Shown here in pieces: positions 48-9,586 of a stretch of 64,000 nt of DNA. Location of the stretch: positions 1-64,000 of the forward strand of contig CANQJF010000001.1 of NCBI GenBank assembly GCA_947624225.1, read 5' to 3'. The notes under the pieces are model-generated. The model ran no database searches and was not told the DNA's origin. It was given only the letters and a program-made list of their open reading frames with translations. The first letter of the stretch is position 1. The number at the start of each line of letters is the position of its first letter. Both the position numbers and the translations under genes were made by a program. Source of the stretch: an uncultured Clostridia bacterium. GTDB taxonomy: Bacteria > Bacillota > Clostridia > Christensenellales > Borkfalkiaceae.

Positions 48-122
48 TGGTACTCCCGACGGGAATCGAACCCATAATTAGCCCTTAGGAGGGGCTTGTT
101 ATATCCATTTAACTACGGAAGC
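48..122 (-). tRNA. tRNA-Arg (anticodon CCT), 3' CCA encoded
   Basis: Reverse complement GCTTCCGTAGTTAAATGGATATAACAAGCCCCTCCTAAGGGCTAATTATGGGTTCGATTCCCGTCGGGAGTACCA folds as a cloverleaf: 7-bp acceptor stem, anticodon stem AGCCC/GGGCT with loop CTCCTAA, GGTTCGATTCC T-loop. Confidence 0.93.
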
Positions 123-273
123 ATCGATGTTTGTGAGGCAGAAGTTTTCTGGCGCTTTTGCATAGTACCAAAAGTTTTCAAGCGCTTCTGCAAATTACAG
201 TTCCATTTTACATCATTGCGAAAGAAATAGCAAGCGTTTTTGAAATTATTTATGGGACTTTTCTCCGGTGGGC

Positions 274-323
274 GCCGAGGGAGGAACTCATAAAGCCGAG
301 GGAGGAACTCATAAAGCCGAGGG
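274..323. repeat. 21-bp tandem direct repeat (GCCGAGGGAGGAACTCATAAA x2 plus partial third unit)
   Basis: Read directly: 274-294 and 295-315 are identical, 316-323 repeats the first 8 bases. Confidence 0.85.
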
Positions 324-483
324 GGAGACTTGGAAAACGAGGATATTCTGACAACCTTTAAAAAATTTTGATGGATATCTTGACATTTTTCTCCTATTTC
401 GTGTATAATCAAATGTGTGAAATGATAAGGACGCTTGACGCATAGGATGAAGTTTTTTGCCAAATAGGATAAAGTGACTTGGC

Positions 484-516
484 TTGCAACCTTTTTTGTT
501 TTTTAAGTAGTAAAAT
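484..516 (+). promoter_or_regulatory. Putative promoter/upstream element of block A (CAACC-T6-G-T6-AAGTAGTAAAAT)
   Basis: Upstream of a gene with a clear RBS; closely matches the sequence at 5626-5657 upstream of block B. Confidence 0.45.
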
Positions 517-581
517 GCTCTTATCCGACGGGCCTTAGAAATCGCAAAACGATTTTGGGAAATAAATCAAGGAGAAAAAAT

Positions 582-1202
582 ATGAAAAAGAAGAACAACG
601 ACGCAAAGATCATTGCCGCAATGGATGCTCTCGATAAGGGGGTTCGCACCCTCGAAAAATTCGGTGCACGCTATGATGAATACATCGACAAGGCCGCCCT
701 TCAAGGGAACGACGCGCGCGCAAAACAGCTGATCCGTCAGAAGCACCGCGTGTATTCTCTTGCCGACCAGCTCAGAACGTTGAAGGGGAACATCGAGCTC
801 GGCGCGTTCAGTGCGCACGCCATTTCCCAGCTCGCAGGCCTTCCCGAGGCACTTTCGGCATGCAAGGGTCTCTTGGCCGAGAGCCCCGATTTCGGCAAGC
901 TCGAAAAGACGCTCAAATCCATCTTCACCGATATGAATAAGACCGAAGCCGAGATCGCCAAGCTCAACGAGATCCTCGAGCCCCAGCCCAGCGAGACGAT
1001 CGCAAGCCGCCTCGACGGTTCTTCCCCGTATGAGGATGAGACGAGCGATTGGTTTACCGCCGAGTACGAGGCCATGATCGAACGCCTCAAAAAGTACGGC
1101 GGCAACTCCATTCCCGCTCCCGCCGAGACTGCCCCTGTGGAGAATGCGACGGGTGAGATCGATTACATCGGGATCGTCGAAGAGGAGAAGAAAAAGAAGT
1201 AA
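582..1202 (+). CDS. Snf7/ESCRT-III-like coiled-coil protein with C-terminal short motif
   Basis: ATG at 582 has AAGGAG upstream (the ORF-track start at 555 is a TTG). Protein ...LDKGVRTLEKFGARYDEYIDKAALQGNDARAKQLIRQKHRVYSLADQLRTLKGNIELGAF...GLPEALSACKGLLAESPDFGKLEKTLKSIFTDMNKTEAEIAKLNEIL... resembles the Snf7/CHMP core layout; C-terminal tail GEIDYIGIVEEEKKKK. Immediately upstream of a Vps4-like AAA gene. Confidence 0.6.
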   Translation: MKKKNNDAKIIAAMDALDKGVRTLEKFGARYDEYIDKAALQGNDARAKQLIRQKHRVYSLADQLRTLKGNIELGAFSAHAISQLAGLPEALSACKGLLAESPDFGKLEKTLKSIFTDMNKTEAEIAKLNEILEPQPSETIASRLDGSSPYEDETSDWFTAEYEAMIERLKKYGGNSIPAPAETAPVENATGEIDYIGIVEEEKKKK

Positions 1203-1205
1203 GCC

Positions 1206-2405
1206 ATGGCAGAAGCAAATATGGTGGGAGTATTCAACTCCAAAGCAAACGCATTCAGCCAAGCGGTTGCGGCGCACGATACCGAGGCGATGTGCAGCAT
1301 CGGTCTTGAAATGCTCAGGATCGGCCTCGATGAGAGCGCAAAACCCAATGTAAGTCCCTCTTTTAAGGACATGTATCGTAAGCAATGTTTGAGCGTGGCG
1401 CAACACCTTGCCAATCTTGCGCGCACGCCTGCAACGAACTTTGCGGGCGGTCACGTCGATTCCGACGAGGTGGACGATCCATACTACAAACCCATCCAAT
1501 GGTTTTCGGATGAAGTGCCCGATCTGAATTTTTCCAACATCATCGGCGTGCAAGAGGTGAAGGATGCCTTCATGGTCGATGTCGTCGCGCCCTTGCGGTC
1601 GGAGTTCAAGGACATCTACCGGAAATTCAGAGGAGACCAGCTTGGCGCCCAACTGCTTCTTTACGGCCCTCCGGGGACGGGAAAGACGCACATCGTCAAG
1701 TGCCTCGCAGGTGCGCTCAATTGTCAAATTGCCGTCGTGCAGACGAGCGAAGTGCTTGCCAGCGTCGTCGGCGTTGCCGAGAAAAACATCCGCGATATCT
1801 TTAAGCAGGCCGCCGAGCTTGACCGTTGCATCATTTTCTTTGACGAGATCGACAGCATCTGCTCGGACCGCGATTCCGAGGACAGCCGTCACACCAAGTC
1901 CATCTTGACGACGCTCCTCACCTGCATGGACGGCTTCATGAAAACCAAGAAGGAGGGGCAGCTTAGGATCATCGTGGCGGCCACGAACCTCCCTTGGAAA
2001 TTGGATTCTGCCCTGAAACGGGGCGGAAGATTCGAGACGCAGATCTATGTCCCTCTTCCCGACGAGGCGGCGGTCGAAAAGTTTGTCTCCATGGAACTTG
2101 AAAAAGTGCCTCATGAGGACAGCGTCACGGTCAAGGGCCTCGCGGAGCGCTTGAAGGGTTATTCGGGCGCCGACATCAAGGCCGTCATGAAGCAGATCGC
2201 CAACCGCCCGCTCAAAAGGGAGGTGCTGAACATCCTTAAAACCGGCAAGCCGATGGGGGAGAAAGTGACGCTGCAAGACTGTGAAGAGGTGATCAAAAAG
2301 TACATCAACGGGGTCACCCCCGAAGTTTTGGCTTGCTTCGAGGCATATAATCGCGGCATGCCCGTAGAGGTGATCAAGAAAATGCTGAAAGGGAGCAAGG
2401 GATAA
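1206..2405 (+). CDS. Vps4-like classical AAA ATPase with N-terminal MIT-like helical domain
   Basis: Walker A GPPGTGKT, Walker B CIIFFDEIDSI, sensor region IIVAATNLPWKLDSALKRGGRFETQIYVPLPD (classical AAA family); N-terminal ~75 aa helical region before the LNFSNIIGVQEVKDAF start of the AAA domain. Confidence 0.85.
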   Translation: MAEANMVGVFNSKANAFSQAVAAHDTEAMCSIGLEMLRIGLDESAKPNVSPSFKDMYRKQCLSVAQHLANLARTPATNFAGGHVDSDEVDDPYYKPIQWFSDEVPDLNFSNIIGVQEVKDAFMVDVVAPLRSEFKDIYRKFRGDQLGAQLLLYGPPGTGKTHIVKCLAGALNCQIAVVQTSEVLASVVGVAEKNIRDIFKQAAELDRCIIFFDEIDSICSDRDSEDSRHTKSILTTLLTCMDGFMKTKKEGQLRIIVAATNLPWKLDSALKRGGRFETQIYVPLPDEAAVEKFVSMELEKVPHEDSVTVKGLAERLKGYSGADIKAVMKQIANRPLKREVLNILKTGKPMGEKVTLQDCEEVIKKYINGVTPEVLACFEAYNRGMPVEVIKKMLKGSKG

Positions 2406-2414
2406 GGAGGATCC

Positions 2415-3473
2415 ATGCCGACAAAAGATCAGATTGCGACGGTATTTTCCAACGCACGGGAGCTGGTGCGCCAGAACGAACCCAAGGCCGCGCGTGCGTA
2501 CGTGCTCATCCTTCTCGATGGCGCGCTCGAAACCTATCGCAATGCATCGACCATCCTGTTGAAAGCCAAAACGGCGGCCTTTTTGGATCAGTGGATCACA
2601 GTATCCCGCGAGCTGTATAGCCATGGGGTTACCGATTTCGTGCGAAGCTGTTTCGGGTTGCCCGTAACGAGCGCCGCTGTTCCTGCCATCCCGAAGAGGC
2701 TCCCCGCAGAAAAGCCCGCAAAGGCGCCCATGGCTCCCGCAGGCCCCGCAGGGAGCGCGCAACCCGCCCCCGGGCAGTTGCCCGCCCCGGGAACGCTTTC
2801 TCCGGGCGAGATCGACATTGCCGGCCTCATCGAAGAGAGCAAAGAGACGCAGGGTTGGTGCGCGGAGGTTTTCGAAAAGAATAAGGATGCCGTCGTCCGC
2901 ATCTCGTTCGCCGGCCGGGATATGTACGGCAGCGGCACGGGCTTCATCATTTCTCCCAACGGGTACTTGCTGACAAACGACCATGTCGTCTATAATGAGC
3001 AAGCCGAGGCATACCATCAGAGGATCACGATGAGCCGCAACGGGGAGAAGAAAAAGCACAAGCTCGAAGTCCTGTTCTCGGATCAACGGCTCGATATTGC
3101 GCTCTGCAAATTCGACCCCGAGGAATTCGGCGATGCCGTCTGTGTCAAGAGGATCGAGAACTATGCGTCCCTGAAACAGGGTGCCGACTGCCTCATCATC
3201 GGGAATGCGTTCGGGATGGGTCTCGCACCCTTCTCGGGTGTGGTCAGGTTTACGAAGGATGACGAGGGCAATTTGGTCTACACGGCGCCCTCCAACCCGG
3301 GAGATTCCGGCGGCCCCGTCTTTAACAGAAAGGGGGAGTGCATCGGGATCAACAAGTCGCGCACGGTGAGTTTTGACAGCCAGGAGGCAGAGGGTTACGC
3401 CAACGCCACGCCTATGGACAGCATCGATGCCTGTTTGGCGCGTTGGATAAAAGTAAACGATATACGGTTATAA
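2415..3473 (+). CDS. MIT-like helical N-terminus + Pro/Ala-rich linker + trypsin-like (HtrA-type, no PDZ) serine protease
   Basis: Catalytic signatures TNDHVV (His), DQRLDIALCKF (Asp), NPGDSGGPVFN (Ser); GSGTGFIISPNGYLLTNDHVV is typical of the HtrA/DegP fold. N-terminal ~80 aa are helical and end ...CFGLP; linker motif GEIDIAGLIEES. Confidence 0.8.
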   Translation: MPTKDQIATVFSNARELVRQNEPKAARAYVLILLDGALETYRNASTILLKAKTAAFLDQWITVSRELYSHGVTDFVRSCFGLPVTSAAVPAIPKRLPAEKPAKAPMAPAGPAGSAQPAPGQLPAPGTLSPGEIDIAGLIEESKETQGWCAEVFEKNKDAVVRISFAGRDMYGSGTGFIISPNGYLLTNDHVVYNEQAEAYHQRITMSRNGEKKKHKLEVLFSDQRLDIALCKFDPEEFGDAVCVKRIENYASLKQGADCLIIGNAFGMGLAPFSGVVRFTKDDEGNLVYTAPSNPGDSGGPVFNRKGECIGINKSRTVSFDSQEAEGYANATPMDSIDACLARWIKVNDIRL

Positions 3474-3483
3474 GGAGTAGAAT

Positions 3484-5028
3484 ATGCAATTCAAAGAGAT
3501 ATTCCGTGAGAAATACCGCGTCGCCTTGCTCGCGGCAAGGGCAAACGATCTCGACGGCGTGATCGCCGCGCTTCGGGAGCTCTATCGGATCTTTGCGGAG
3601 CAATACAGCAAGAAAAACGGCGACAGCATCTATGTGAAAGCGCAGCTGAGCCGCTGGAAGGATATCTCCGCAACCTATCTTCATCTTGCCGAAACGCATG
3701 GGCTGAAAGACAAGCGGCTTCGCGATTTCTTCGGACTTCCCGATGAGGAGATCGGTTACGAGGGGATCGTCGGCAACGAGGGAGGCGAGGAAAAGAAGAG
3801 AGCCTCGGGCGGCGGAATTGACATTGCCGGCATTGTTCCGGAGACGCCGACAGCGCCTTCGGAGGGGAGGATCGCAGACATGCCCCCCGCCGATGTGCCC
3901 GAAGTGCCCGTAAATCCTTCGGAGGAGATCCCGGAGGCTCCCGCAGAGCCCATCCCCGAGGAGGCGGCTCCCGCCCAAGACGGGGCGGCACAACCCGCGG
4001 AGGGAGAGGGCGGAGAGACGCTCCCCGAGACGCCCGCAGAGACAGTTGCGGACGGAGCGGGGGAACCGCAGAGCTTGGCGGAATTCGTGGGCCAGAGACA
4101 CATCGTAAAGGTGCTCATGAAGGAGATCGCCATTGCCAAGGCGGAGGGGCGGCATCATCTCGACAACATCCTGCTGCTCGGCAATCCCGGTCTCGGCAAG
4201 ACGACGCTCATGAAGCTCATTGCCAAGGAACTCGGGGTAAAGTACGTCGCCATCGACGGTACCAAGTTCCGCAACAGCCAGACTTCTGTCCAGTCCTTCC
4301 AAAACCTGTTGCAGAATGTGGCTCGCGAAAACGTACCCGTGGTGATCGCCATCGACGAGATCCACATGCTCAACGACGATTTGCAATCGGGCCTTCTCAC
4401 CCTTTTGGAGGAGAGAATTTACATCTCGCCGCCCGATAAGAACGGCGTGATCAAGCACATTCCCATCGATGAATTCACGTTTATCGGTGCGACTACGGAT
4501 GACGACAAGGTGCTCGCCACGATCAAGGACCGTTGCCTCAGGCTCAAATTCCAGCTCGTCGATTATTCCCCCGAGGAACTGAGGGAGATTTACAAGCGGA
4601 AGGTGAGCGCACGCGGGCTCACGATCACGGAAGAGGCCATCGAGACATGTATCCCGCGCAGCCGCGGCTCCCTCCGTTACGTAAATTCCTTTGTGGACGG
4701 GCTCAACCTCGAACTCTATGACGACAACGGGAAGCGCGTCTCCACGCACATTGACCTCGCCATCGCGCTCAGATTCTTCGAGGAACGGGGGATCGATCCC
4801 ATCGGTCTCAACAAAAAGGATCTCGAAATTTTGCGCGTGATCGAGGAGGACCCCTCGGGCGCCATCGGTGCGGAGACGCTCTCCGCACGCATCGGGCTCG
4901 ATGTCAAGAAATATCTCTCGGAGTGCGAGCCTTTCCTCATCAAAATAGGGTTTGTCACCGTTTCCGGGAGAGGGAGAGGCCTCACCGAAAAGGCTATCAA
5001 TTATCTGAAAGCGCATTCCGGCGATTGA
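3484..5028 (+). CDS. MIT-like helical N-terminus + RuvB-like AAA+ ATPase with C-terminal winged helix
   Basis: SLAEFVGQRHIVKVLMKEI, Walker A GNPGLGKTT, IAIDEIHML, FIGATTDDDKV, C-terminal ERGIDPIGLNKKDLEIL..GAIGAETLSARIGLDVKKYLSECEPFLIKIGFVTVSGRGRGLTEKA as in RuvB; N-terminal ~95 aa helical, ending FFGLP; linker with GGGIDIAGIVPET. Confidence 0.8.
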   Translation: MQFKEIFREKYRVALLAARANDLDGVIAALRELYRIFAEQYSKKNGDSIYVKAQLSRWKDISATYLHLAETHGLKDKRLRDFFGLPDEEIGYEGIVGNEGGEEKKRASGGGIDIAGIVPETPTAPSEGRIADMPPADVPEVPVNPSEEIPEAPAEPIPEEAAPAQDGAAQPAEGEGGETLPETPAETVADGAGEPQSLAEFVGQRHIVKVLMKEIAIAKAEGRHHLDNILLLGNPGLGKTTLMKLIAKELGVKYVAIDGTKFRNSQTSVQSFQNLLQNVARENVPVVIAIDEIHMLNDDLQSGLLTLLEERIYISPPDKNGVIKHIPIDEFTFIGATTDDDKVLATIKDRCLRLKFQLVDYSPEELREIYKRKVSARGLTITEEAIETCIPRSRGSLRYVNSFVDGLNLELYDDNGKRVSTHIDLAIALRFFEERGIDPIGLNKKDLEILRVIEEDPSGAIGAETLSARIGLDVKKYLSECEPFLIKIGFVTVSGRGRGLTEKAINYLKAHSGD

Positions 5029-5052
5029 ATGCGTGAAGCAAGGAGGGAAACA

Positions 5053-5577
5053 ATGGAAGAGAAACGTCTCACCCGCGAGCAGCAGGCGCTGTTGGACGCA
5101 TTGGATGATTATCTGCACCAGCCCGTCAAGGAGGCGGTGCACCATGTGTTCGGCGACTTCGGCGACCCGCTTACCGAAAAATTTATTGCGGAGGAGGAGA
5201 AGAACCAAGATGAACGCAACCGTTTTCGCGATTGCGTGATCAAGCTGATGGACAAAAAAGGGATCAAAAAATTCTCCGACGTCTACAAGGCGGCCTGCAT
5301 CTCCAAGTATACCTTCTCGCGCATCATGAACTATGACAAGGACCGCAAACCCGCCAAAGAGACGGTTGCGGCGCTTGCAATCGGGCTCAAATGCACCATG
5401 GATGAGGCGCAGGAGCTCTACCATGCGGCGGGATTCCACCTCGGAACGACAGATTTCCTCGACAGGGTCATCGGCTTTTTCATCCGGGAAAAGCGGTATA
5501 GCGTCAACGAGGTAAATTTCTGCTTGGATTACTTCGGCGCGTCGCTCATCGGCGAGCAGAGCAGGGATCGCGGGTAA
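5053..5577 (+). CDS. XRE-like helix-turn-helix protein
   Basis: ATG at 5053 has AGGAGGG RBS (longer ORF start 5029 less likely). FSDVYKAACISKYTFSRIMNYDKDRKPAKETVAALAIGLKCTMDEAQELYHAAGF is an XRE/Cro-type HTH pattern. Confidence 0.75.
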   Translation: MEEKRLTREQQALLDALDDYLHQPVKEAVHHVFGDFGDPLTEKFIAEEEKNQDERNRFRDCVIKLMDKKGIKKFSDVYKAACISKYTFSRIMNYDKDRKPAKETVAALAIGLKCTMDEAQELYHAAGFHLGTTDFLDRVIGFFIREKRYSVNEVNFCLDYFGASLIGEQSRDRG

Positions 5578-5596
5578 AAAATTTTTCAATTAAATT

Positions 5597-5637
5597 TGGT
5601 TGGCTCGGTTTATGTTGCACGCCGAGTCAACCTTTTT
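5597..5637 (+). terminator. Rho-independent terminator after block A (overlaps block B upstream element)
   Basis: GGTTGGCTCGG ... CCGAGTCAACC inverted repeat followed by TTTTTTATTTTTT. Confidence 0.75.
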
Positions 5638-5657
5638 TATTTTTTATATAGTATGAT
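5626..5657 (+). promoter_or_regulatory. Putative promoter/upstream element of block B (CAACC-T6-A-T6-ATATAGTATGAT)
   Basis: Matches the 484-516 element; ends with a TATGAT -10-like sequence upstream of the 5694 start codon. Confidence 0.45.
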
Positions 5658-5693
5658 ATATGGGAAATCACAGAGAAGAGAGGAGAAAAGAAC

Positions 5694-6290
5694 ATGCAAT
5701 CCAAAGAAGAATTTTCATGGGGCTATTCGCTCAACCGCAACACGATCAATATTTTCGAACCCATCACTGCCGAAACCGCAGAGAGAGTCATCAGTCAGCT
5801 GCAATACCTCGACGACAAGTTCCGCACGGAGGATATCCCGATGGAGGAACGCGTCATCACCATCCAGATCGACAGCCCCGGCGGGAGCGTCTCGGATGGG
5901 CTCGCCATTTACGACACGATGAACTACATCGAAGCAAAGATCGCAACGGTGGGGCTGGGAATGTGCGCGAGCATGGCGGCATTTTTGCTCTGTTCCGGAA
6001 CGCGCGGCCTCAGAAGCGCAACCGAGAACTGTGAGATCTTGATCCACCAGCCGCTCGGCGGGGCACAGGGGCAGGCGTCGGACATCATCATTGCCGCCAA
6101 CCACATCGAGCGCATCCGCGCGCGGCTCAACCGCATTTTGGCGGAGAACACCAATCAGCCCATCCGTAAAATCCAAAAGGACACAGACAGGGATACCATC
6201 ATGACGGCGGCCGCCGCAAAGGAGTATGGCCTCATCGACCGCGTGATCCCGAGTAAAAACAAAGCCAAGGGAGGAAATGAACATGTTTGA
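5694..6290 (+). CDS. ClpP-like (S14) serine protease
   Basis: TIQIDSPGGSVSDGLAIYDTM, GMCASMAAFLLCSGT (catalytic Ser), ENCEILIHQPLGGAQGQASDI (His), DTDRD (Asp) match the ClpP fold and active site. Confidence 0.9.
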   Translation: MQSKEEFSWGYSLNRNTINIFEPITAETAERVISQLQYLDDKFRTEDIPMEERVITIQIDSPGGSVSDGLAIYDTMNYIEAKIATVGLGMCASMAAFLLCSGTRGLRSATENCEILIHQPLGGAQGQASDIIIAANHIERIRARLNRILAENTNQPIRKIQKDTDRDTIMTAAAAKEYGLIDRVIPSKNKAKGGNEHV

Positions 6291-7899
6291 CCATCTTACC
6301 GAAATGATGCTGAGAAGCTACTTTATCGCGGAAAACACCGTCGGGCGTTTTTACGGGGATAAACAGGCGCTTTTCTCTGCGTATGCAAAAATTTTTCTTG
6401 TGCCGTCCGACGAGGCGGCGCGGCTGTTTGCCCTTGCGTCCCGGGAAGAAGTCACGGGGATCCTGAGCGAGCGCGAATATCACCAGCATCTCCGTCTCAA
6501 ACAATTTCTTGCCATGAATGCCCGCTCCCGCGTTTCCGACGCCGAGTTGGAGGACATGATCGATCTCAAAGGCACGGCCTTTACCATGGCGTTGAATTAT
6601 CAGCTCATGCAGGACGCCAAGGAAGTGAAGTCCGTCGCTTGCGAGAATTTGGCGCTTGCCGCGGAGAGCGGCATCATCGCGGCGCTCAACGTTCTCGGCA
6701 TCTTGCAGATGGAGGGGATCGTTCTCGGAAAAGACCGGGAGAACGGGCTCAGAAAGATCCAAAATGCCGCCGATTGGGACAGCGAAGAGGGGCTTCTCGC
6801 GGCCCTGTACTATGACGCCGAGGGGAGAGAAAAATATCTCGAACGGCTGCACGACTGCATGGTCCGTATCGGACATGGTATGGCTTTCGAGCGTGTCAGA
6901 GCCGTCTATGGGGATTACACGGAGGGGAAGCACGGGGAGTATAAACTACTCGAAAAGGCTTTCCGTCAGGGCCTCCTCAAACGCGAGGTCTACAACAAGC
7001 CGTATGCCCGTCTCGTGTATTCCAAGCTCTTGAACGACCGCGACAAGGAGGCCCTCGTCCTGAGCCCCAACAAGGAGCTCTTTGCGGAGGCCTGCTCGCT
7101 GCCGCTCAAACTCGGGAGCACCTCCGCGTCCTTCAACGCGGAAGCTCTCGCGGATCTCCGTCCCGACCGGGTGGAGGAGCGCACAAAGGTCATTTGCGGC
7201 CTCGGGAACACCGATCTGTGCGCCGTTCCCTCCTATCGGCCTCTCTGTTTTGTCTCCGGGAGCAAATACATGCTCAACTTTTACGAGACGCTCATTCCCC
7301 GCTGTTTCCGCGGGTGCCACACGGAGCGCATCGAGGTGAGCGACCTTGCGGAGTATGACTTCGAACCCACCAAAAACAATATCTTTGTGAGAAGTTGCGA
7401 TGAGGATGCCTTTAATCTGTATCTCTTGTCGTTCCGCGGGGAGATCTCGGACAGATACTTCGACATGGTAAAGAACTTTTTGCAGAGCGGAAAACGCGGA
7501 AAATTCCGCTTGAATCATCCGAGCGTTTCGCTCGATCTCTCGGCCGTATTGCCCGTTTGCTTTGCAGACAGCGAAAATGCCAAGAAACTCAGACCCTATT
7601 GCGACATTATCCGCATCACCGAGCTGACCGTTTCCGAGAAAGTAAACTTTTTGGAGCACATCCTCGAAGAAAAGGCGCAGACGTACGGGATCGGCAAACT
7701 CACCATTCGCGCGGAGGTCGCGGAGAAGCTCACGGAATACGGCATCGACGACATCGAACGCGTGTGCGATGCGGCCATCTGTGAACATCGCACCCATGAG
7801 CTGACGCTCACAGAGGAGATCGTGCGTCCCTATTTGAGAGGGATCGGCGCGAGAAGAACTTACGGTTTCGGAGGTAGCATTCATGACGATCACGAATGA
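6277..7899 (+). CDS. Uncharacterised protein: Sel1-like repeats and degenerate AAA+/Lon-like C-terminal region lacking Walker A
   Basis: Overlaps the clpP-like gene and the next gene. ALAAESGIIAALNVLGILQMEGIVLGKDRENGLRKIQNAA is Sel1-like; LPVCFADSENAKKLRPYCDIIRITELTVSEKVNFLEHILEEKAQTYGIGKLTIRAEVAEKLTEYGIDDIERVCDAAI resembles the sensor-1 to lid region of Lon-type AAA+ proteins; no GxxGxGK[ST] seen. Confidence 0.5.
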   Translation: MNMFDHLTEMMLRSYFIAENTVGRFYGDKQALFSAYAKIFLVPSDEAARLFALASREEVTGILSEREYHQHLRLKQFLAMNARSRVSDAELEDMIDLKGTAFTMALNYQLMQDAKEVKSVACENLALAAESGIIAALNVLGILQMEGIVLGKDRENGLRKIQNAADWDSEEGLLAALYYDAEGREKYLERLHDCMVRIGHGMAFERVRAVYGDYTEGKHGEYKLLEKAFRQGLLKREVYNKPYARLVYSKLLNDRDKEALVLSPNKELFAEACSLPLKLGSTSASFNAEALADLRPDRVEERTKVICGLGNTDLCAVPSYRPLCFVSGSKYMLNFYETLIPRCFRGCHTERIEVSDLAEYDFEPTKNNIFVRSCDEDAFNLYLLSFRGEISDRYFDMVKNFLQSGKRGKFRLNHPSVSLDLSAVLPVCFADSENAKKLRPYCDIIRITELTVSEKVNFLEHILEEKAQTYGIGKLTIRAEVAEKLTEYGIDDIERVCDAAICEHRTHELTLTEEIVRPYLRGIGARRTYGFGGSIHDDHE

Positions 7900-9586
7900 A
7901 TTGATGCAGGGGTACGAGGATACCAAGTATTACCACTATGAAAATTTGGACCCGGAATTCCCGGGAAGCGTTTGGTATGACGAATTGCCCCAAAAAGAGG
8001 TGACGGGCGTCTTAAAATCCAATCGGTATGTAGACGGCCGTCTGTTGCAGATCTATTCCGAAAAGGAAAACCATGTGGGCGTCATTGCGGCCACGCGCCT
8101 CGGCAAGACGACCTCCTATGTCATTCCCACCGTTCTTTCCTTTGCGCGGGCAAGGAACAAGCGGAGCATGATCGTCTCCGACCCCAAGGGGGAGATCTAC
8201 CGCCACACCGCTGCCACGCTCAGGGAGATGGGGTACGAAGTGCTGCTTCTCAACTTCCGTGACTATGCGCATTCCGAGTGCTGGAACCCTCTTACGCCCA
8301 TTTTCCGCAAGTATCAGGCCATCTATAAGGTCTATGATGAGGTGGAGCTGGTCGAGACGGAAAACGGGCCGCGCAACCTCTTCCGCGGAAAGATCTATGA
8401 GGACCAGACCCTGCTCGACGCCGAGATCGAGCGCTATATCAACATCATGCTTGAAGAAGTCGGCAACGATATCGACAACATTGCCATGATGATCGCGCCC
8501 ACGGTGGACTTAAAGGATCCCTATTGGGAGGACAGCGGCAGAGAACTCTTAAAGGGCTATCTTTGGGCCATGCTCGAAGATAGCCGCCTCGAATTCATCG
8601 AGGGCTCGGATCGGCCACTCATCACCGAGGAGACCTATTCCTTTGCGACCATCATCACGTTGATGTCCCTTTTGAATAAGGCAGACGGCGATTTCGACAG
8701 CGGTTACTTCTTCTCCCGCCCCAAGACTTCCCGCGCCTACCGGATCGTCAAGACGGCCATTCCCGTGCATGCCCAAACGACGCGCCAATGTATCACGAGC
8801 GTCTTTAATTCCAAGATGGCGGTTTTCAAGGAGAGCGCGATGCGGTTGGTCACGAGCTGCAACTCCTTTGATTTGGAGGAAGTCCTCACGGGCGAAAAAC
8901 CCGTTGCGCTCTTCATCGACTACCGCGACGAGCTCAAAGTGCACTTCAAGGTGATCAGCCTGTTCGTGCAGGATGCCTACCGCCTCTTGATCGAGCACGC
9001 CAACGTTCAGCCCGAGGGCAAGCGGGAGATCCCGTTCTATTTCATCCTCGACGAATTCGGCAATTTCCCCGCGATGAAAGACTTCGAGACCACCATTTCG
9101 GCGTGTGCGGGGCGCAACATCTTCTTTATTCTCATTGTGCAGTCCTATGCGCAACTCAACGGCGTCTATGGCGATGCGGTGGCGGCCATTATTCGGGACA
9201 ATCTGAATATGCACATCTTCTTCGGTTCCAACAATCCCCAAACGTTGGAGGAGTTCTCCAAGGAGTGCGGCCTGTTCACGCGCATCTCGCCCACGTCCGT
9301 TTTAAACGGAAAGGGCCCCGAGATGGATTCCTATCAGCTTGAAACCATCCCGCTCGTCCCGAGAAGCATGCTTGCGCACTTCTCGCAGGGAGAATGTATC
9401 ATTACGGAAGCCAATTGCGGCTATGTCATGTTCTCAAAGTTGGAGCGGTACTATCTCTGCAAGGAATACAGCGAATTGCCTCTTCTCGACGAAAAACAAT
9501 ACACGGGTAGAGTGGATCCTTTCCAGGCATGTTACACCTACAAATTTTCTGAGGAACAACTCAAAAAAATGCGCGACGATGACTGA
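7883..9586 (+). CDS. VirD4/TraG-like coupling-protein-type ATPase without N-terminal transmembrane segment
   Basis: VGVIAATRLGKTTSYVIPTVLSF (T4CP Walker A), IVSDPKGEIYRHTAATLREMGYEVLLLNFRD, FYFILDEFGNFP (Walker B), FFILIVQSYAQLNGVYG are TraG/VirD4 motifs. Confidence 0.88.
   Translation: MTITNELMQGYEDTKYYHYENLDPEFPGSVWYDELPQKEVTGVLKSNRYVDGRLLQIYSEKENHVGVIAATRLGKTTSYVIPTVLSFARARNKRSMIVSDPKGEIYRHTAATLREMGYEVLLLNFRDYAHSECWNPLTPIFRKYQAIYKVYDEVELVETENGPRNLFRGKIYEDQTLLDAEIERYINIMLEEVGNDIDNIAMMIAPTVDLKDPYWEDSGRELLKGYLWAMLEDSRLEFIEGSDRPLITEETYSFATIITLMSLLNKADGDFDSGYFFSRPKTSRAYRIVKTAIPVHAQTTRQCITSVFNSKMAVFKESAMRLVTSCNSFDLEEVLTGEKPVALFIDYRDELKVHFKVISLFVQDAYRLLIEHANVQPEGKREIPFYFILDEFGNFPAMKDFETTISACAGRNIFFILIVQSYAQLNGVYGDAVAAIIRDNLNMHIFFGSNNPQTLEEFSKECGLFTRISPTSVLNGKGPEMDSYQLETIPLVPRSMLAHFSQGECIITEANCGYVMFSKLERYYLCKEYSELPLLDEKQYTGRVDPFQACYTYKFSEEQLKKMRDDD

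Follow-up and report, generated by a model that had tools for sequence, protein, structure and literature searches.

The 64,000-nucleotide stretch considered here (positions 1 to 64,000 of contig CANQJF010000001.1 in assembly GCA_947624225.1, from an uncultured Clostridia bacterium; hereafter, the window) carries near its start three consecutive genes, for a Vps4-like AAA ATPase (p2), an HtrA-like serine protease (p3), and a RuvB-like AAA protein (p4), with a gene for a candidate Snf7-like protein (p1) directly ahead of them. We consider it moderately probable (roughly 0.58) that these genes encode a bacterial variant of the endosomal sorting complex required for transport (ESCRT)-III/Vps4 system, in which N-terminal helical modules would gather an unfoldase, a protease, and a motor on a common scaffold. 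The evidence that carries this reading is the gene content, the fold-level similarity of the three modules, the homology of the p3 and p4 modules, the affinity of p2 to Vps4 and of p1 to Snf7, and the conservation of both a short peptide motif and the operon itself. The four genes are as follows.

582..1202, + strand: p1, Snf7/ESCRT-III-like helical protein of 206 amino acids, candidate scaffold (Pfam Snf7 PF03357)
1206..2405, + strand: p2, Vps4-like AAA ATPase of 399 amino acids (Pfam AAA, 2.3e-36)
2415..3473, + strand: p3, HtrA/trypsin-like serine protease of 352 amino acids (Pfam Trypsin_2, 2.1e-21)
3484..5028, + strand: p4, RuvB-like AAA protein with a winged helix, 514 amino acids (Pfam RuvB_N, 8.9e-21; RuvB_C, 3.5e-14)

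The N-terminal helical modules

The original prediction, made from the letters of the window, held that p2, p3, and p4 each start with a three-helix-like module resembling the MIT domain, that two of these modules end in an identical FGLP, and that one module has been reused to recruit all three proteins to a shared scaffold. The sequences described do open the three proteins, in the following places.

1206..1433, + strand: p2 MIT-like three-helix module, residues 1-76 (AlphaFold2 helices; HHalign to the BAC3 set, see below)
2415..2663, + strand: p3 helical module ending in FGLP, residues 1-83 (HHalign to the p4 module and to canonical bacterial Vps4 N-termini)
3484..3747, + strand: p4 helical module ending in FGLP, residues 1-88 (AlphaFold2 helices; HHalign to the p3 module)

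In the AlphaFold2 (AF2) models, which were built on shallow alignments of three to four sequences per protein and give these stretches a predicted local distance difference test (pLDDT) score of mostly 60-85 (about 52-81 for the modules in the model that holds p2 and p3), the N-terminus of each protein forms a three-helix module of about 75-88 amino acids. The helices run to residue 22, 26-44, and 51-73 in p2; 4-19, 23-43, and 47-69 in p3, plus a short fourth helix at 74-79; and 3-19, 23-42, and 49-75 in p4, plus 77-83. Rather than differing in topology, the outcome that the prediction had named as damaging to itself, the three N-termini give a common layout in this helix pattern, with helix lengths and order in agreement. 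Because a single chain comprising p1, p2, and p3 was modelled (positions 582-3470 read in a single frame, with TAA read as Gln), contacts among them in the model are no evidence of interaction. The shared FGLP is also real: it closes the module at residues 80-83 in p3 and 83-86 in p4, and FGL is conserved across both protein families. The p2 module has neither FGL nor the short fourth helix.

The modules of p3 and p4 are clearly homologous by profile comparison, and would be paralogs, with an HHalign probability of 98.3-98.4% (E about 1e-14, 84 columns) against 1.5% or less for reversed-sequence decoys. All three modules are linked solely by way of N-termini taken from further Vps4-like AAA proteins in bacteria of the same order, for which two sets were assembled: BACmim, from 20 proteins, many with an ESCRT-III-like gene directly upstream, and BAC3, from five others. 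HHalign gave 88% for the p3 module against BACmim, 84% for the p2 module against BAC3, and 93% for BACmim against BAC3, with the p4 module joined via p3 (98%); for the first three pairs, reversed profiles gave 2% or less. Since hhalign probabilities on single pairs are uncalibrated, these decoys serve as the guide to the scores. Of the pairwise comparisons proposed with the original prediction, that of p3 with p4 gave a clear match; the direct ones of p2 with p3 and p4, and of the modules with eukaryotic MIT, are given below and were weak or not significant. The proposal of one reused module holds for p3 and p4; the p2 module seems at best to be a remote relative of theirs.

How far the modules may be called MIT-like is a separate matter. 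The bridging sequences match the Pfam MIT profile weakly (two of 33 sequences of the set A7, the best at 1.3e-6, and the AAA protein of the related locus L087 at 0.0021). Human and yeast Vps4 MIT sequences compared with the modules by pairwise BLAST and Smith-Waterman remained at noise level, and a three-sequence eukaryotic MIT profile in HHalign did not rise above reversed decoys. Profile searches of the PDB with the modules hit mainly designed helical repeats, and archaeal Vps4 MIT structures were matched weakly, by the canonical set only (2v6y at 0.07, 2w2u at 0.12). The Foldseek searches described below were run on whole proteins and do not isolate the modules. In other words, topology and an indirect homology to bacterial Vps4-like N-termini support the term “MIT-like”, and formal membership in the MIT family is not reached. 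A Pfam MIT scan of 392 genomes of the class was set aside, as its matches were for the most part short, partial, and within long open frames, and many were probably TPR-like.

A short motif in tails and linkers

A short acidic-hydrophobic peptide recurs in p1, p3, and p4.

1158..1184, + strand: IDYIGIVEE in the p1 tail, candidate docking peptide (conserved in p1 tails)
2811..2837, + strand: IDIAGLIEE in the p3 linker, the motif of the p1 tail again (shuffle test and orthologs)
3751..3774, + strand: IGYEGIVG, a weaker copy directly after the p4 module (sequence of the window only; not conserved in aligned relatives)
3817..3843, + strand: IDIAGIVPE in the p4 linker (regular expression in orthologs)

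The pattern ID[YI]xG[IL][VI][DE]E or a near variant is present in 18 of 19 p1 tails, compared with 2% of shuffled tails. It is found in the proline-rich linker of 13 of 18 p3 orthologs (1.2% in shuffled linkers), with near variants in L069 and L070, and, by regular expression, in the linker of 8 of 15 p4 orthologs (4.8% in shuffled linkers). For the 12-mers of the window's own p1 tail and p3 linker, GEIDYIGIVEEE and GEIDIAGLIEES, none of 5000 shuffles reached the observed score. The single-sequence comparison of the p4 linker with the p1 tail was not significant, and the case for p4 rests on conservation. Canonical bacterial ESCRT-III proteins have a comparable segment (for example SDDEINALIDEE) upstream of their end, which resembles MIT-interacting motif 1 (MIM1), and the motif may thus be a retained tail element copied by p3 and p4. 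It may bind the modules or, alternatively, the p1 core. The motif also has a likeness to the N-terminal “DIxGLxEAK” of AAA cores; the possibility that it marks the beginning of such a domain was rejected, because the motif lies in tails and proline-rich linkers and no AAA domain follows it in p1 and p3.

The four proteins

The operon contains a candidate for the shared scaffold, with the conserved acidic-hydrophobic tail just described. p1 matches the Pfam Snf7 family at E=1.1e-5 and 25.6 bits, just under the curated cut-off of 27.3. Of 18 p1 orthologs, 13 match Snf7; any other family has at most two matches among them. When the p1 family was compared with canonical bacterial Snf7 by HHalign, the divergent subset gave a probability of no more than 7.6%, over 126 columns, with a score of 25.6 versus 11.6-12.0 for decoys. 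The low-confidence model of p1, considered for the long alpha1-alpha2 hairpin of ESCRT-III, has helices at residues 2-40 and 44-72. We therefore treat p1 as a candidate divergent Snf7-like protein. A search of plasmid and phage records with p1 gave no match.

For p2, 55 AAA domains were placed in a maximum-likelihood tree with the FtsH of the same genome as the root. Eukaryotic Vps4, p2, and other bacterial AAA proteins form one clade in it (ultrafast bootstrap 95), to the exclusion of Cdc48, AFG2, and the VCP domains of archaea. Within this clade, the p2 family is sister to BAC3, a set of other bacterial AAA proteins with MIT-like N-termini (support 100). The Foldseek matches of p2 include katanin and Metallosphaera Vps4, and the katanin/Vps4-like signature ATNxPWxLD...IYVPLP is conserved in the p2 family. 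These observations suggest that p2 groups with Vps4 rather than with Cdc48 or FtsH, within the limited set of references used.

The catalytic triad of p3 (H190, D227, S298) is invariant in its family, and its top Foldseek matches are HtrA structures (HtrA1/DegS). A Pfam scan found no PDZ domain in p3, no export signal is evident, and the helical module occupies the start of the protein. We propose from these features that p3 is a cytosolic HtrA-type protease, in which the module would consequently stand in for PDZ targeting. p4 is matched to RuvB by Foldseek and retains the Walker motifs and a winged helix. Its score against the RuvB equivalog profile, 165.8 bits, is below the cut-off of 282; p4 is predicted to be a RuvB-derived AAA motor, and by score is not RuvB itself.

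Conservation and related loci

Homologs of p1 were found in 7 of 201 genomes of the same family and 13 of 396 of the same order; a 200-genome sample of the phylum had none besides the window's own genome. Of the 19 p1 loci, counting the window, 18 have p2, 18 have p3 (L072 is without it), and 15 have p4, the remaining fetched stretches either ending before p4 or lacking it. Contamination is unlikely, because numerous independent genomes within the order have homologous operons. In many loci one or two extra genes for helical proteins of about 205-230 amino acids lie upstream of p1. These are absent at the window locus; a homolog of the one ahead of p1 lies elsewhere in the same genome, with further helical genes (L119, contig C9, 2876-5198).

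This genome also has a second, divergent ESCRT-like locus (L021, contig C22, 1845-11663). It encodes a Snf7-like protein of 185 amino acids, an ESCRT-III-like domain fused to RuvB, an AAA protein with an MIT-like N-terminus, a Sel1-HtrA protease, a coiled-coil protein, and a CbbX-like AAA protein with an MIT/TPR-like N-terminus. The recurrence of AAA, HtrA, and RuvB proteins in two different arrangements supports the view that they form a functional set. The ESCRT-III-like proteins found in this genome are those of the loci described here; PspA_IM30 gave no match in the assembly, which is 98% complete, and was positive in 9 of 14 control genomes.

Loci with a more canonical layout (L087, 6894-10805, and L088-L117) consist of one or more ESCRT-III-like genes with MIM1-like tails adjoining a Vps4-like AAA gene. 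In a search of 347 genomes of the order, 47 had a match to the L087 Vps4 at E<=1e-45. In L094, the protein upstream of the Vps4-like AAA is Snf7 at 34.0 bits, above the cut-off of 27.3. The Vps4_C domain is detected in L087 at 32.2 bits (cut-off 21.3; 1.1e-7) and just under the cut-off in L083. The Snf7-like proteins of these relatives have tails such as DIDKEIEKLRKKI and end in helices such as SEDIDKEIEKLRKKI, which resemble MIM1. The MIM1 consensus is (D/E)xxLxxRLxxLR. On these scores the Snf7 assignment is firmer in the canonical-layout relatives than for p1. Three TerD-like genes, recognised by eye and without a profile, lie upstream of the ESCRT-III/Vps4-like operon in L083 (2341-4230).

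In several relatives of the window operon, p3 or p4 is followed by variable genes for small proteins with two transmembrane (TM) segments and for BspA-type leucine-rich repeat (LRR_5) proteins, some with TIR-like domains (after p3 in L013, 10809-14187; L064, 5827-9754; L066, 3812-7113; L014, 10886-16397; and L016, 2790-6187). DO-GTPase2-like (one case) and Hsp70-like genes, the latter recognised by eye, also occur downstream of the core (L071, 12974-15556; L069, 16768-18001; L072, 1005-2528).

A proposed mechanism and its alternatives

We infer from the above a scheme in which p1 would assemble into a polymer or scaffold, presumably at a membrane. The modules would dock to the short acidic-hydrophobic peptides of tails and linkers, ID[YI]xG[IL][VI]EE in p1, p3, and p4. 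p2, as a hexameric AAA unfoldase, would dock by its module and thread p1 or a bound client, as Vps4 does; p3 and p4 would dock through their own modules, and their linker motifs could receive other modules, giving a network. The p1 scaffold would in this way hold an unfoldase and a protease together with a second motor. In the order of action that we envisage, p2 would extract p1 or proteins associated with it, and p3 could cut what p2 extracts.

Several results weigh against this scheme. The direct HHalign comparison of the p2 module with those of p3 and p4 gave about 11%, and Pfam MIT (PF04212) is absent among the families listed (25 of 32) for 43 module sequences. Vps4_C (PF09336) was not detected in p2 at E<=0.1 among the matches listed (25 of 30 families), and the references of the AAA tree were without katanin, spastin, and archaeal Vps4/CdvC. 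Against the canonical bacterial Snf7 set, the p1 family stayed at decoy level (0.3%). The mean confidence of the AF2 models is low, at 52 (the p1-p2-p3 model) and 67. Finally, L012 keeps p1, p3, and p4 without p2, so that p2 is not always needed in cis.

One alternative is that p3 and p4 carry a helical adaptor specific to their lineage, akin to the effector-associated domains (EADs) of NTP-dependent conflict systems. It would pair either with its own kind or with the ID..G[IL][VI] motif, and the AAA N-terminus would be unrelated; recruitment would be shared and MIT-ESCRT would have no part in it. That the p3 and p4 modules match each other far better than the p2 module or any MIT, and have in common the FGL and the short fourth helix that p2 lacks, is what this explanation expects, and the pattern of a constant core accompanied by TIR, LRR, and two-TM genes that vary is reminiscent of the conflict systems in Kaur et al. 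2020 (PMC7159879). We regard it as rather unlikely, however, since the p3 module reaches 88% with the N-termini of bacterial Vps4 proteins that adjoin Snf7 genes and the operon itself holds a Snf7-like gene and a Vps4-like AAA. Moreover, no EAD-named family is among the 25 of 32 Pfam families listed for the 43 module sequences, and PMC7159879 makes no mention of ESCRT, Vps4, Snf7, or MIT domains.

The three N-termini could also be ordinary helical bundles, such as TPR-like hairpins or oligomerisation domains, alike by convergence, with only p3 and p4 sharing ancestry and no common scaffold. TPR and designed helical repeats are indeed among the best matches of the module profiles in Pfam and the PDB, and the direct p2-p3 and p2-p4 scores are weak; yet helix lengths and order agree in all three, reversed decoys of the same composition fall far below the bridging comparisons, and the genes lie next to one another and have been conserved together, so that we find this explanation very doubtful. 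Slightly less so, and still improbable, is the possibility that p1 and its upstream relatives are proteolysis adaptors that present substrates and form no membrane polymer, with p2 and p3 acting as an AAA-serine protease pair like that of the anti-phage system IetAS. The AAA gene does adjoin a serine protease gene, p2 matches IetA at 1e-37 in PADLOC, and p1 is weak in HHalign against canonical Snf7. The IetA match is, however, confined to the AAA core; p3 is HtrA-type, unlike IetS, which is a subtilisin-type protease; and Snf7 is the sole recurring family for p1.

To return to the ESCRT-III/Vps4 reading, a broader picture can be offered tentatively, as something we think possible but would not bet on: one order of gut Clostridia would run a full ESCRT-III/Vps4 system with an MIT-MIM code, the window variant would bring a protease and a RuvB-derived motor under this code, and the TIR, two-TM, and LRR genes of its relatives would mark an ESCRT-based stress or anti-invader machine. 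The stress or anti-invader role is a guess from these variable genes.

Comparison with known systems

The window system is like the eukaryotic and archaeal ESCRT-III with Vps4/CdvC (MIT-AAA-Vps4_C) in that a Snf7-like gene adjoins a Vps4-like AAA gene with a helical N-terminal module, that p1 bears an acidic-hydrophobic C-terminal peptide, and that related loci have above-cut-off Snf7 and Vps4_C as well as MIM1-like tails. It differs in being bacterial, in having modules of this class on two further proteins (the HtrA-type protease and the RuvB-like AAA), in a p2 without detectable Vps4_C, and in a very divergent p1. Among eukaryotic proteases, calpain-7, AMSH, and USP8 are brought to ESCRT-III tails by an MIT module (PMC10586806, PMC9477494). 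p3 would share with them the delivery of a protease to a scaffold by such a module, whereas it is an HtrA-type serine protease encoded in an operon with its candidate scaffold, and its module is not demonstrably MIT.

In Bacteria, the ESCRT-III superfamily has been represented by PspA and Vipp1. PspA systems were reported to be without Vps4, bacteria being said to lack a clear Vps4 homologue (PMC7615534), and ESCRT components other than PspA/Vipp1 were stated to be unidentifiable in bacteria (PMC10936438). The window system shares this bacterial ESCRT-III setting, but p1 matches Snf7, the operon has a Vps4-like AAA, and the genome is without a PspA_IM30 match. Ravi et al. 2024 (PMC11237479) described a VPS4-like AAA that moved from archaea to bacteria, with snf7 displaced by a TPR/6TM gene, and also reported bacterial Snf7 members near AAA genes. 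Their system, too, has a Vps4-like AAA in bacteria; the window differs in its Snf7-like gene and its protease and RuvB-like partners. In the conflict systems that Kaur et al. 2020 described (PMC7159879), trypsin-like proteases occur along with shared helical adaptors. IetAS likewise has an AAA ATPase gene adjoining a serine protease gene, and differs with respect to protease fold, N-terminal modules, and scaffold gene. Our literature search, with most subscription papers and preprints outside its coverage, found no paper on the present operon.

Snf7-like and Vps4-like genes thus occur together in Clostridia, contrary to the statements of the surveys on bacteria, and a putative docking module is present on two further catalytic proteins. 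If the proposed reading is true, the operon would offer a small genetic system for studying how an ESCRT-III scaffold recruits unfoldases and proteases, and what its role in bacteria is, and it would be an independent data point on the origin of the MIT-ESCRT-III recruitment logic.

Operon layout and neighbouring genes

Two further features of the window concern the expression of the operon.

380..409, + strand: sigma-70-like promoter, TTGACA-18-TATAAT, matching the consensus at 12 of 12 positions, upstream of the operon; the sole + strand site in 100-7900
5029..5577, + strand: p5, HTH_26-like protein, possible regulator (Pfam), directly 3' of p4 and a recurrent neighbour

Because this promoter is perfect and no terminator-like site was found on the + strand in 100-7900, the interior of the operon included, p1 to p4, and probably p5 onward, would form one transcript. 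Homologs of p5 are present in L012, L013, L019, L068, and L069. Farther downstream in the window (5694-9586) are genes for a ClpP-like protease, a protein of 540 amino acids without assignment, and a VirD4-like ATPase of the CD1115 family; no relaxase or VirB4 was seen among the window's open reading frames scanned. Subsets of p5 to p8 lie near the core again in L012, L013, and L069. Immediately upstream of the operon, a tRNA-Arg (CCT) gene on the minus strand (48-122) is a possible integration site.

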